A program made the position numbers and the translations under genes. This document shows, in pieces, positions 27,764-54,437 of a DNA stretch of 56,670 nucleotides (the stretch's first letter is position 1; each line of letters opens with the position of its first letter). Source of the stretch: Bacteroidota bacterium (GTDB lineage: Bacteria; Bacteroidota; Bacteroidia; Bacteroidales; Paludibacteraceae); contig JAUZOM010000003.1 of assembly GCA_030706465.1 (NCBI GenBank), positions 1-56,670 on the forward strand. The letters are read 5' to 3'. A model generated the notes under the pieces. It was given only the letters and a program-made list of their open reading frames with translations. It had not been told where the DNA came from and made no database searches.

Positions 27764-27806
27764 TATACCATAAACATGGTATATAAAATACCCCATCATT
27801 GCGATT
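27764..27806 (+). promoter_or_regulatory. Shared tandem-palindrome operator, cysK copy
   Basis: TATACC-N7-TGGTA-N7-TACCC-N7-GCGATT. The distal half is a perfect palindrome (TATACCAT-aaac-ATGGTATA); the proximal half is degenerate. The architecture and the ATACCATAAA core match the operators at 41779-41820 and 54396-54437. The element ends exactly 21 nt before the -7 box, as at the other two sites, with a central spacer one base longer. Confidence 0.75.
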
Positions 27807-27827
27807 GTGGGCCTCCAAATTCAGCAA

Positions 27828-27835
27828 TATCTTTG
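27828..27835 (+). promoter_or_regulatory. cysK -7 box
   Basis: TATCTTTG matches TAnnTTTG, 39 nt upstream of the cysK ATG. No good -33 element is seen at the usual distance, consistent with activator dependence. Confidence 0.7.
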
Positions 27836-27874
27836 CATCATAAAAATAAACAAACCCATTAAATAAAAATTGTT

Positions 27875-28822
27875 ATGGCAAAAATAGCAAAACAACTCAC
27901 AGAATTAGTCGGCAACACACCGCTCTTGCAACTCACTAACTACAGTGCAAAAAAAGGTTTAGAAGCTACCGTTATTGCAAAACTTGAATCGTTTAATCCG
28001 GCAGGTTGCGTAAAAGAACGTATCGCGCTGGCAATGATCGAAGATGCCGAAGCAAAAGGCATTTTGAAAGAAGGCGTTGAAATTATTGAGCCAACCAGCG
28101 GAAATACCGGTATTGGTTTGGCTTTCGTAGCTGCCATTAAAGGATATAAACTTACGCTGACAATGCCAGAAACCATGAGCGTGGAACGTCGGAACTTATT
28201 GAAAGCCTTCGGTGCAAACATCGTACTTACTCCCGGAGCAACCGGTATGAAAGGAGCTATTGCCCGTGCATTGGAACTACAGACCGAAATTCCAAACTCA
28301 TATATTCCACAACAATTTGAAAATCCAGCCAATCCGGAGATTCACAAACGCACAACCGGTGAAGAAATCTGGCGTGATACAGACGGGAAGGTTGATATTT
28401 TTGTGGCGGGTGTAGGAACCGGTGGAACAGTAAGTGGGGTTGGTGAATCACTGAAAGCCCATAATCCAAATGTGAAAATTGTTGCTGTTGAGCCTACAGA
28501 TTCACCGGTTTTATCAGGTGGCAATCCCGGTCCTCATAAAATACAAGGAATTGGTGCAGGATTCATTCCTAAAACTTACAATCCTGACGTAGTTGATGAA
28601 ATCATACAGGTCAGTAACGACAACGCTATCCTAACTTCACGTCAATTGGCACAACAAGAAGGACTATTAGTTGGTATATCATCAGGAGCTGCTGCTTATG
28701 CCGCTACTCAATTGGCTCAACGCCCCGAAAACAAAGGGAAGGTCATTGTTGCATTGCTTCCTGACACAGGCGAACGTTATCTTTCAACGTTGCTTTATGC
28801 ATTTGAAGAATATCCGCTTTAA
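27875..28822 (+). CDS. cysK: Cysteine synthase A (O-acetylserine sulfhydrylase)
   Basis: A 315-aa PLP enzyme making cysteine from O-acetylserine and sulfide. The N-terminal '[10 protein letters not shown]', the PLP-lysine motif '[12 protein letters not shown]' (Lys47), '[15 protein letters not shown]' and the phosphate-binding '[13 protein letters not shown]' loop are all clear. The usual NPGGSVKDR reads NPAGCVKER here, an accepted variant. Upstream is the shared tandem-palindrome operator, so the gene probably belongs to a regulon with the two TonB operons downstream. A sulfhydrylase-type gene follows on the same strand after about 320 bp. Confidence 0.95.
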
Positions 28823-28831
28823 TTCTGAGGC

Positions 28832-28861
28832 AAGGAGCAAGAGTTAAGAACTCTGCTCCTT
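28832..28861 (+). terminator. cysK downstream hairpin made from interspersed repeat words
   Basis: AAGGAGCA-GAGTT pairs with AACTC-TGCTCCTT around a 3-nt loop. There is no real T-tract, so termination strength is uncertain. Its arms use the same AAGGAGCAAGAG word that recurs at 28992-29017 and in the ABC-F gene. Confidence 0.5.
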
Positions 28862-28991
28862 CACTTTCGAAGTTAGTGGAAAGCTGCAAAAAAGAAAAAT
28901 AACAAAAAGAAAAAGATAAAAACAGGAGAAATCTAAAAAAAGGGAAGGATCTATTGATAAGTTGCGAGTAGTTATTGCTTCCAAATATTTG

Positions 28992-29017
28992 CCTCTTGCT
29001 CCTTACCTCTTGCTTCT
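28992..29017. repeat. Interspersed CTCTTGCTCCTTACCTCTTG repeat
   Basis: CTCTTGCTCC followed by TTACCTCTTGCTTCTG is the reverse complement of GCAAGAGGTAAGGAGCAAGAG, the same purine-rich repeat vocabulary as 25010-25075 and 28832-28861. Confidence 0.5.
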
Positions 29018-29146
29018 GTATTTTTTAAGGTATAAAAAAGATTTAATTTTAAAGTAAACATTATGGCAGGATTTTCTATCGCCTTTCAGAAAGCACTCGC
29101 TAAAGTTTTAAATTTAAAACCGAAAAATCAATTAACAACAAATGAT

Positions 29147-52931: not shown

Positions 52932-53030
52932 ACAATTTTTTAATTGTAGCGGGTGTCCCCTTGATCAGTTTGCCGACGGAAATGGGGGGATACTCGCTTT
53001 TGTTTATAATTAGTAATTAAAATAGATTCT

Positions 53031-53963
53031 TTATTTTAGCGATAAGAATCTCCCGTTCAGTTGATTGGCTTGCTCTGCCAGAAATTGCTTATCTAAATGG
53101 AGAAATCCTTCCGCATGATTAAATTTCTGACCATCGGTCAATACCCATTTCAAAAAATCAGCCACTTCCTTACGGGATGTCTGTTGGGAGTAAATAAATC
53201 CGATTTTTTCCACCGGAATGGTTTCAACACGATTCCTTTCCAACACCTCAATCACATTATCCAGATTTCCCGTTAAGAGTTCCTTTGTGTCCTTCTTCAA
53301 TTCGAGTGGTAATAATGCTATTCCATCTTTTAATTTCCGTGAATTGGTATCGTATAAGTAACCCAGGCTATTATAAGCCAAGCCGGTGGTATCTCTCTTT
53401 ATTGCCGAGAGCAAATAGATATCATCACCCAACACTTTTTTCCCTCTGATTTCGGAAGACTGGTGACTAAAGTATCCGGCTAAGGCTTTTGATGTGCAAG
53501 CCTGATTGTCACGGGCATAAATGGTTGCAACAAATTTTTGTTTTTCTTTTATCGCCGGATCATCATCGTAACTGGTTACTTCAAAGAAAAGTTTATCAAT
53601 CTCCTTTTTGTTTAACCCTTTCTTCCTTGCTGCCGGCAAGATCGGGTTATTTGTGTTGGTTACAGGGAGCAAGGCATACTGTCCGGCATATAATATCTCC
53701 TGATTATCTGTCATCTCATCTTTTGTCGGTTGATGTGCTATGACATTTAAATCAACATGCTGTGCGGTTGCAGCTTTGGAAGCTAGTTTTACATTAGCAT
53801 TCGGGTAGATCTTTGTATACTCTTCAATCCATCTCTCGATTAATGGATAGGTAAATTTAGTACCACTGATTATCACCGGTTCGGTCGCTTTGTTTTCTGC
53901 AGCAAATGCTGTTGAAGAAACAAACAAGGCAAAAAGCAATTGATAAAAATAAGTTGGTTTCAT
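53031..53963 (-). CDS. PstS-like periplasmic substrate-binding protein
   Basis: A 310-aa protein with a signal peptide (MKPTYFYQLLFALFVSSTAF, cleavage near residue 21) and a type II binding-protein fold similar to PstS: 'VIISGTKFTYPLIERWIEEY', 'LLPVTNTNNPILPAARKKGL', 'YARDNQACTSKALAGYF'. No ABC permease or ATPase gene is in this window, so it may hand its ligand to an unlinked transporter or act as a sensor. It is the first full gene of locus B, 156 nt after leader B. Whether it binds phosphate, sulfate or another oxyanion cannot be told here. Confidence 0.75.
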   Translation of the reverse strand: MKPTYFYQLLFALFVSSTAFAAENKATEPVIISGTKFTYPLIERWIEEYTKIYPNANVKLASKAATAQHVDLNVIAHQPTKDEMTDNQEILYAGQYALLPVTNTNNPILPAARKKGLNKKEIDKLFFEVTSYDDDPAIKEKQKFVATIYARDNQACTSKALAGYFSHQSSEIRGKKVLGDDIYLLSAIKRDTTGLAYNSLGYLYDTNSRKLKDGIALLPLELKKDTKELLTGNLDNVIEVLERNRVETIPVEKIGFIYSQQTSRKEVADFLKWVLTDGQKFNHAEGFLHLDKQFLAEQANQLNGRFLSLK

Positions 53964-54062
53964 ACTCTTTTTTATTAAAATAAATATATTAATTCATCTA
54001 TCAGGTCAACATGACCCAATAAAGTAATTGTAAAATTAGAATGTTTGATTGAAAGTGATTTG

Positions 54063-54096
54063 TTCTCGTATACTGCAAAAGGGTGTGGAACGAGAA
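54063..54096 (-). promoter_or_regulatory. Leader-RNA hairpin before the binding-protein gene
   Basis: TTCTCGT and ACGAGAA pair around a 20-nt loop in the RNA between the leader B stop codon and the binding-protein start. It may be part of an attenuation structure; there is no T-tract. Confidence 0.35.
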
Positions 54097-54119
54097 TTAA
54101 AGGCGAAAAGAGGAATCAA

Positions 54120-54293
54120 TCACGACATGTGGCAACACATTCGCATAGAGATGGAAGAAGACGAGAATAATACGGGAGAGAATGTAATTTTGGATAAAGA
54201 AAACTGAGGGTTTTCATCTAAATGAATGCTCGTAAGTTGATTCCGCGAATCAGATAAGACATCCTGAGTAATGTAATAAATACCTTTTTTCAT
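54120..54293 (-). CDS. Short Cys-ended upstream ORF (leader peptide B)
   Basis: A 57-codon ORF (ATG at 54293, TGA at 54120) opens the locus B transcript. It reads MKKGIYYITQDVL at the start and SISMRMCCHMS at the end and is a paralog of leader A (41484-41663) by position, length, MKK start and RMCC end. The frame also continues upstream to 54395, but that would run through the promoter, so 54293 is the start. The Cys codons (TGT TGC) lie in an ATGTG-ttgc-CACAT hairpin. See leader A for possible roles. Confidence 0.72.
   Translation of the reverse strand: MKKGIYYITQDVLSDSRNQLTSIHLDENPQFSLSKITFSPVLFSSSSISMRMCCHMS
54127..54140 (-). promoter_or_regulatory. Hairpin over the MCCH codons of leader B
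   Basis: A 5-bp stem ATGTG/CACAT with a 4-nt loop containing parts of the Cys codons, equivalent in position to the longer hairpin in leader A. Confidence 0.5.
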
Positions 54294-54366
54294 ACTAAAC
54301 CTTTTTTTGTATATCGCATTTAAGATATCTGAACTTCTTGTAAAGATTATTTTCTTTTTTACGTTA

Positions 54367-54374
54367 CAAAAGTA
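54367..54374 (-). promoter_or_regulatory. Locus B -7 box
   Basis: TACTTTTG on the minus strand, identical to locus A, 73 nt upstream of the leader B ATG. A TTTG about 18 bp upstream may act as a -33 element. Confidence 0.75.
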
Positions 54375-54395
54375 ATAGGAGTAGTCTATAACCAA

Positions 54396-54437
54396 AATAC
54401 CGTTTGCAGGGTATTTATGTACCCTATTTATGGTATT
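54396..54437 (-). promoter_or_regulatory. Shared tandem-palindrome operator, locus B copy
   Basis: On the minus strand AATACC-N7-GGGTA-N6-TACCC-N7-GGTATT, the most symmetric of the three copies: two TACC-N8-GGTA palindromes with centres 22 bp apart. It ends 21 nt before the -7 box. Confidence 0.82.

Follow-up and report, generated by a model that had tools for sequence, protein, structure and literature searches.

Why should a cysteine synthase gene and two outer-membrane uptake operons carry one and the same element in front of their promoters? The question was raised by a 56,670-nucleotide stretch of DNA from a Bacteroidota bacterium of the Paludibacteraceae (GenBank contig JAUZOM010000003.1, positions 1 to 56,670, forward strand; this whole stretch is called the window below), in which a first-pass annotation, made from the letters alone, had found a tandem palindrome at three promoters and had read it as the operator of a regulon. 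Comparison with other genomes supports the element and its spacing, the set of genes it precedes, the link to a regulator gene and a group of leader peptides behind it. With good confidence we propose that the element is the site of a NarL/FixJ-type activator of cysteine and sulfur assimilation, with a leader-peptide layer at the uptake operons.

Structure and spacing of the element in the window

The three elements lie at 27764..27806 (+) before cysK, at 41779..41820 (-) before an uptake operon labelled as copper-type (site 2), and at 54396..54437 (-) before a PBP-like/SusCD/OsmC operon (site 3), and direct reading confirmed their positions and strands. Their sequences are TATACC-ataaaca-TGGTA-tataaaa-TACCC-catcatt-GCGATT, AATACC-ataaatc-GGGTA-ttcaaa-TGCCC-tgttaat-GGTATT and AATACC-ataaata-GGGTA-cataaa-TACCC-tgcaaac-GGTATT, respectively. 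Each consists of two TACC-N8-GGTA palindromes 22-23 bp apart. As had been claimed, ATACCATAAA is common to all three with no letter changed, and the gap from the end of the element to a TAnnTTTG box is 21 nt at every site (TATCTTTG at 27828..27835 (+) for cysK, TACTTTTG at 41750..41757 (-) for site 2 and TACTTTTG at 54367..54374 (-) for site 3). The full scheme of four half-sites holds for site 3, but at cysK the distal palindrome is intact while the fourth half is GCGATT in place of GGTATT, and at site 2 the third half is TGCCC. Judged from where it recurs, the GCGATT half is a retained cysK-type variant and not decay, because 11 of the 13 anchored sites (those with the box at 22 nt, see below) that end in GCGAT, the window cysK included, precede cysK-type genes; the remaining 2 precede a DsrE-like gene. 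Site 2 reaches with its distal end into the 3' end of an amino-acid permease gene (41811-43502), and this is one of two places in this genome (the other at L007:1621-2601) where the element overlaps such a permease-like gene at its 3' end or comes after it.

With up to 3 mismatches, the N4-spaced pattern gave 4 rows in the window (2 elements on both strands, 0.15 expected) and the N5-spaced pattern 2 rows (1 element on both strands, 0.11 expected), and 0 of 100 dinucleotide shuffles reached as high a number in either case; the motif is not as frequent in shuffled sequence as in the window. A chance origin of the element was rejected on these shuffles and on the reversed-pattern controls of the genome scans.

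Distribution of the element across genomes

In the scans of the genome itself and of related genomes, for which the first-pass annotation had asked, the element recurred with reversed-pattern controls near zero. The strict pattern matched 12 of 60 genomes (own genome included) and its reverse none. In a set of 36 genomes, again including our own, 40 rows were obtained with the TAnnTTTG-anchored pattern at up to 3 mismatches (one row being a second reading of the same element) versus 2 reversed, and a companion anchored search of this set gave 39 rows versus 2. With 2 mismatches allowed and two spacings searched, 22 of 344 Bacteroidales genomes had the anchored tandem element, and the reversed pattern gave 0 and 1 matches.

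A GTDB-wide exact scan, in which the promoter box was no part of the query (ATACC-N8-GGTA-N4/5-AAT(A/G)(A/C)C-N8-GGTAT), found at least 117 stretches. Among the matches listed, 73 of the 80 with a record title belonged to Bacteroidota, and the other 7, all without the box at the fixed distance, look like chance matches. Likewise among the matches listed, 109 exact sites had TAnnTTTG exactly 22 nt after GGTAT in 78 cases and at 21 nt in 2, a one-letter variant of the box stood at 22 nt in 9 more, and no TAnnTTTG was found elsewhere within 45 nt. Where the query left letters free, T was preferred after GGTAT and A/T within the spacers. Four features proposed from the window hold in other species: the paired palindromes, their constant distance from the promoter, the position resembling that of an activator and the common regulon.

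We take TAnnTTTG to be the -7 box of Bacteroidota, and the centre of the proximal palindrome would therefore lie about 42-45 bp before the start, the position of a class II activator. A repressor lying over the promoter and relieved under sulfur starvation could also be imagined, and the proximal palindrome does reach the -33 region. However, a site kept at constant distance on the same helical face is in keeping with an activator, where a repressor would presumably tolerate more positions, and NarL/FixJ proteins are mostly activators, though some repress; we consider repression quite improbable.

As a genome-wide probe the single palindrome gave 112 rows versus 15 reversed in 60 genomes, was partly another motif, the ATACCTA palindrome described below, and was not used for counts. 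A single palindrome of the same type stands before a lipoprotein-like gene in two species (G000:C325:16352, G000 being our own genome, and G005:C50:65433). Another palindrome, ATACCTA-N4-TAGGTATTG or close to it, is likewise found 22 nt from TAnnTTTG in other Bacteroidales (L332, L333, L337, L340), where it precedes FeoA/FeoB-like and DUF542/DUF1858-like genes (named by look) and perhaps marks an iron or nitric-oxide regulon. In a Flavobacteriales metagenome-assembled genome (L047:1402-1442, L132) a near-palindromic copy lies between divergent genes, and its neighbours are unlike sulfur genes.

Genes behind the element

Altogether 262 unique sites were collected, 57 without the box at 22 nt were excluded from the target counts, and 205 anchored sites were left, 193 with a first gene and 12 with none within reach. 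Because these counts pool scans with and without promoter selection as well as close relatives, they describe a spectrum and not frequencies; targets were identified by Pfam for nine cluster representatives and by look for the rest. The 193 first genes comprised 73 of the cysK/cysM type, 22 PBP-like, 13 regulator, 11 DUF4395, 9 sulfite-reductase flavoprotein type, 9 O-acetylhomoserine-sulfhydrylase type, 7 ThiS, 6 TonB/SusC, 5 PAPS-reductase domain (CysD-like by look), 5 DUF2061 and 3 RBBP9-type hydrolase genes, and 24 clusters of one or two, including a hexapeptide acetyltransferase, a radical SAM protein, a DsrE-like protein and a Pst-like permease. In one relative a sulfatase gene lies inside an element-led PBP-SusCD operon. 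From the kinds of genes it precedes, the element-controlled set is almost certainly a sulfur assimilation regulon of the Bacteroidales. The element precedes cysK and other targets across Bacteroidales, that is, it is conserved upstream of orthologs. The earlier proposal of a regulon joining cysteine synthesis to two uptake systems was right as to the shared regulon, but the scope is wider and covers sulfur assimilation generally, to which the uptake operons contribute a part.

A steady target was a membrane protein of the DUF4395 family that carries a CPIS-type motif (11 sites, e.g. L203, L190, L170; also L271:3485-3949), and because of this it probably has a sulfur-related function.

A NarL/FixJ-type regulator linked to the element

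In L043 and nine loci like it, the gene next to the element encodes a protein of 214 aa, in which a GerE domain and a below-cut-off Response_reg match were found. Our own genome, which comprises 4.34 Mb in 337 contigs and is 94% complete, has a relative of the L043-type protein outside the window (G000:C40:2540-3190; 40% identical, E 5.5e-48), whose gene lies between mnmA and gldN and has one element at a distance of 1.2 kb and a second at 2.0 kb. The first-pass annotation had noted that no regulator gene was linked, which is true within the window, but a candidate is linked on contig C40 of the same genome and in many relatives. The gene follows gldN and apparent other gld type IX secretion genes (L150:2537-9221, which is contig C40), and in L328 relatives of two gld-region genes stand three and four genes before the regulator.

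A profile search of the 344 Bacteroidales genomes, which reported best matches only, gave an ortholog of at least 120 bits in 37 genomes among the matches listed, at a cut-off chosen after seeing which genomes carry elements. The ortholog was present in 20 of the 22 genomes with the element versus 17 of the 322 without it (Fisher p 2.6e-20), and at a stricter cut-off of 130 bits in 19/22 versus 16/322 (p 7e-19), p-values that are overstated, as related genomes are not independent. Therefore the family spread (the 20 genomes with both element and ortholog span 13 families) and the physical linkage carry the argument. Among the matches listed, the ortholog is present in 26 of 87 anchored GTDB loci, 10 nt to 4.3 kb away from the element, and in none of the 17 loci without a box at the fixed distance, 7 of which come from other phyla. 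Moreover, the element stands directly before a regulator-family gene at 13 sites, 10 of them from one closely related group.

Neighbourhoods selected by the regulator were obtained from 34 of the 37 ortholog genomes (G202, G204 and G172 gave short stretches only), and 32 loci were usable for the neighbour count, L276 being left out through open reading frame (ORF) calling. A cysK gene was five or fewer genes away in 12/32, a sulfhydrylase gene in 12/32, and a cysK, sulfhydrylase, PBP or permease gene in 18/32. All 12 regulator-near cysK genes have a palindrome 22 nt before the box, 9 of them a single copy and 3 the tandem (L274, L275, L278), with CAnnTTTG replacing TAnnTTTG in two of the three tandem loci. 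The nine single copies correspond to the proximal palindrome and depart from ATACC-N8-GGTAT by no more than 1 mismatch, and because of these 9 of 12 genes the two palindromes appear to be separate units, of which the proximal one appears essential.

In a phylum-wide sample, 72 of 395 were positive at E 1e-30, 63 of them in one family of another class, conceivably the green sulfur bacteria. Among 22 loci of that class, cysK lay in the same short stretch in 16 and the tandem element in 14, and the gene order sulfhydrylase-regulator-element-cysK was common; four weaker matches from other families had neither cysK nor the tandem element. In an unrooted tree, a 97/93 branch split 86 orthologs, of which 21 came from the other class and 65 did not, from 34 further response regulators, and the tree separates the proteins on either side of the 120-bit cut-off. 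A second branch of the regulator family (L153:6034-6696, L140:2664-3506, L164) stands beside radical SAM and PBP genes with the element in front, and beside a sulfatase-like gene in L272; it may run a sulfatase sub-regulon.

The L043 protein has a C-terminal LuxR/GerE helix-turn-helix (HTH) domain (PF00196, 1.5e-14), and its N-terminal half has the receiver fold, as seen from a full-length match to 5hev (VraR/LiaR, E 1.7e-13); the Pfam Response_reg score is 20.8 bits, below the cut-off of 30.2. The AlphaFold 2 model predicts a (beta-alpha)5 receiver and a LuxR HTH, as in the NarL/FixJ family (VraR, LiaR, RcsB, NarL), with a mean predicted local distance difference test score of 86. The nearest solved relatives by sequence and by fold (Foldseek) are VraR and LiaR, and RcsB is also near. 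The receiver residues D54, K105 and D8 are kept in 65/65, 64/65 and 60/65 orthologs, but the phosphorylation site is incomplete, with N at position 9, the second acidic residue, in 45/65 orthologs versus D in 28/31 other regulators, and Q beside this position in 61/65. Because the complete acidic pair is missing in most orthologs, we read the protein as a NarL-type regulator with an atypical receiver, in which phosphorylation may be weak, absent or unusual. In the HTH, positions H179, K186, F189, R190 and E199 are fixed in 95-100% of the 65 orthologs versus 10-32% of the 31 others. The conserved C127 was considered as a sulfur sensor and dropped, being kept in only 48/65 orthologs. No sensor kinase was recognised by eye among 16 neighbour clusters of the regulator, and no genome-wide kinase search was made.

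On this evidence the element-binding protein is very probably a NarL/FixJ-type regulator. It could instead be another factor, either an Rrf2-family protein of the CymR/IscR type or a LysR-type relative of CysB, with the NarL-type gene as a mere target or neighbour: among the matches listed, 61 of the 87 anchored GTDB loci have no adjoining regulator gene, and Rrf2 proteins control cysteine genes elsewhere. Yet Rrf2 was rejected as the binding protein, with 0 matches in our genome at 94% completeness and 13 of 14 control genomes positive, and the co-occurrence and linkage of the NarL-type clade hold in two classes; LysR-type genes were not searched for. The odds are clearly against another factor.

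The known cysteine regulators CysB, Cbl, CymR and McbR likewise join cysK, sulfate/sulfite reduction and sulfur uptake under a single factor, but their protein families are unrelated to the candidate, and no Rrf2 gene was found in our genome. Within the NarL/FixJ family, the NarL heptamer TACYYMT resembles the TACC of the element, whereas the proteins described here differ in the second acidic residue (not Asp in most orthologs, with D54 and K105 kept), in having no sensor kinase recognised by eye beside the gene, and in a regulon of cysteine synthesis. Porphyromonas CdhR (PG1237), a LuxR-type regulator, was set aside on the literature, where titles and abstract starts among the papers listed gave no cysteine link.

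Leader peptides with cysteine tails

At two of the three window sites, unannotated leader ORFs with cysteine tails follow the element, which the first-pass annotation had missed: one of 59 aa at 41484..41663 (-), ending in VRMCCCSTSR, with its Cys codons inside a predicted 8-bp hairpin, and one of 57 aa at 54120..54293 (-), ending in SMRMCCHMS, with its Cys codons inside a predicted hairpin. A leader on contig C40 ends in SMRMCCRSMSC, and the window and C40 leaders are 57-59 codons long. Among 197 distinct downstream regions, an RM-x0-2-CC ending was found in 13 (leaders of 46-71 codons), in 0 on the reverse strand and in 0 of 20 shuffle sets. The leaders precede PBP-like (9/22), TonB/SusC (2/6) and sulfhydrylase-type genes (1/9, without RM) as well as a small number of others. 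No leader precedes any of the 73 counted cysK-type genes, whose 5' regions are mostly short; the exception is the uncounted copy on contig C67, where a Cys-rich ORF precedes a CBS/PALP enzyme gene. In most leaders the Cys codons are predicted to lie within small hairpins. Rfam gave no match in 8 loci, and NCBIfam none for the three leaders tested.

These features point to a cysteine-codon attenuator, an assignment we favour with some reserve. The uORFC-8-2 of Rhodobacterales is a short upstream open reading frame (uORF) that precedes cysS (PMC8632094), and like the leaders it has tandem Cys codons within a hairpin and stands ahead of a gene related to cysteine. The leaders differ from it in being longer, in the RMCC tail, in having no recognised U-run terminator, in being joined to a transcription-factor site and in matching no Rfam family in the 8 loci.

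Alternatively, the leaders might sense copper through the nascent chain, and the regulon would then concern copper or thiol-metal stress. The model here would be CruR of Bordetella, a copper-responsive uORF that encodes a 145-residue DUF2946 protein with CXXC and RAPP motifs before a TonB transporter gene (PMC9426467), to which the leaders are similar as Cys-bearing uORFs before such genes; the HMA and YtkA domains in the second window operon also fit. However, compared with CruR as described there, the 13 RM-CC leaders are shorter and carry Cys at the very end, and the three tested match no NCBIfam model. No RAPP motif was seen by eye in the two window leaders. Further, most leaders stand before genes of the PBP-SusCD type, and cysteine synthesis makes up the main part of the regulon. 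Copper sensing is unlikely in our judgement, and we retain cysteine-codon attenuation.

Proposed mechanism

We infer binding by the NarL-type protein, activation, the limitation signal and the leader mechanism from the arrangement of sites and genes. The element would be the binding site of a transcription activator of cysteine and sulfur assimilation in Bacteroidales, a NarL/FixJ-type protein with an atypical receiver and a LuxR/GerE HTH (own copy at G000:C40:2540-3190), bound as one dimer per ATACC-N8-GGTAT palindrome. The dimer on the proximal palindrome, centred about 42-45 bp before the assumed start, would contact RNA polymerase and so stand in for a good -33 box; the distal palindrome, which lies two helical turns further upstream, would make binding cooperative. 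Autoregulation of the regulator gene would occur in some lineages. At uptake operons the leader peptide ending in consecutive Cys codons would form a second layer, in which the ribosome stalls at these codons when charged tRNA-Cys is scarce and the uptake operon is then expressed. Activation upon sulfur or cysteine limitation seems likely, activation in preference to repression being suggested by the position. Only as a tentative and rather doubtful extension do we suggest that an atypical response regulator serves as the cysteine activator of Bacteroidales and a second class, works independently of a kinase and reads a sulfur metabolite directly with its receiver, and that sulfur uptake at the outer membrane is under double control, exerted by this activator and by an RMCC leader family that counts cysteinyl-tRNA.

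Besides the kinship behind the p-values, several observations speak against this picture. The ortholog scores show no clear gap at 120 bits (121.5, then 118.3 and 116.8); the strict tandem element was not found in 17 of the 37 ortholog-bearing genomes, some of which the single-palindrome form explains; and 2 of the 22 element-bearing genomes (G082, G245; one site each) have no ortholog. In 14/32 regulator-selected loci none of the four counted sulfur gene kinds lies within five genes, and in our own genome no element was seen before the regulator gene on inspection by eye. No site was found in G003, G006 and G016, relatives from the genus, by strict, anchored (up to 3 mismatches) or single-palindrome scans, and the C67 and C307 sites described below carry 3 mismatches; with that many allowed, the reversed pattern too had one match in this genome. 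As for the leaders, the wider test for a Cys-rich tail was passed by only 15 of 197 regions, with 2.45 per shuffle set expected by chance without the RM requirement and 3 found on the reverse strand, and no common terminator or antiterminator was recognised after them.

Genes under the element in the window and further copies

In the window, cysK (27875..28822, +; PF00291, 5.5e-75) is followed at its 3' side by a Cys/Met-metabolism pyridoxal-phosphate (PLP) enzyme gene (29063..30448, +; PF01053, 6.5e-137), which is perhaps cotranscribed with it. The operon behind site 2 (34373..41263, -) has an extent predicted from gene spacing and strand and encodes a 151-aa protein with a CC motif, a YtkA-like protein, a TonB receptor, a second TonB receptor, a 225-aa protein and an HMA domain. 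Its earlier label, copper-type, rests on a TonB-copper match of the TonB receptor (E 2.6e-33) that stays below the cut-off (115.7 versus 472 bits) and on the HMA and YtkA domains. The operon behind site 3 (44790..53963, -, extent likewise predicted) encodes a PBP-like protein (53031-53963, a weak partial match), SusC (49821-52931), SusD (48234-49781), an OsmC-domain protein (46872-48194) and an S9 peptidase (44790-46850), all on the minus strand.

Pattern searches added 4 sites in our genome: C40:438-507 (-), C40:1223-1292 (-), C67:8138-8208 (-) and C307:3977-4047 (-). The Cys-tailed leader at the edge of contig C40 stands downstream of a C40 copy, and a serine hydrolase (PF06821) downstream of one further copy. 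The C67 and C307 copies are less certain than the other two. The operon behind the C67 copy, which comes after the Cys-rich ORF, encodes a CBS/PALP enzyme, a pair of Cys/Met PLP enzymes and a homoserine O-succinyltransferase, and a DUF4395-like protein, assigned by likeness to the 11 DUF4395 first genes elsewhere, lies downstream of the C307 copy.

Significance

In a network paper on Bacteroides thetaiotaomicron (one of PMC12596196, PMC9026213), the main text mentions cysteine only for media. Among the papers listed from the open literature, covered by titles and abstract starts, no cysteine regulator, no such element and no such leaders were described for Bacteroidales; subscription journals and RegPrecise were outside the search, and a prior prediction there is possible. 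The Bacteroidales are major gut and rumen bacteria. With the protein, the site and a list of targets named, cysteine control in this order becomes directly testable. If the proposal is true, sulfate/sulfite use, cysteine synthesis, sulfatase and TonB uptake would be linked in one control circuit, and sulfur-related roles would be suggested for DUF4395, DUF2061, the PBP-SusCD operons and an overlooked family of leader peptides.

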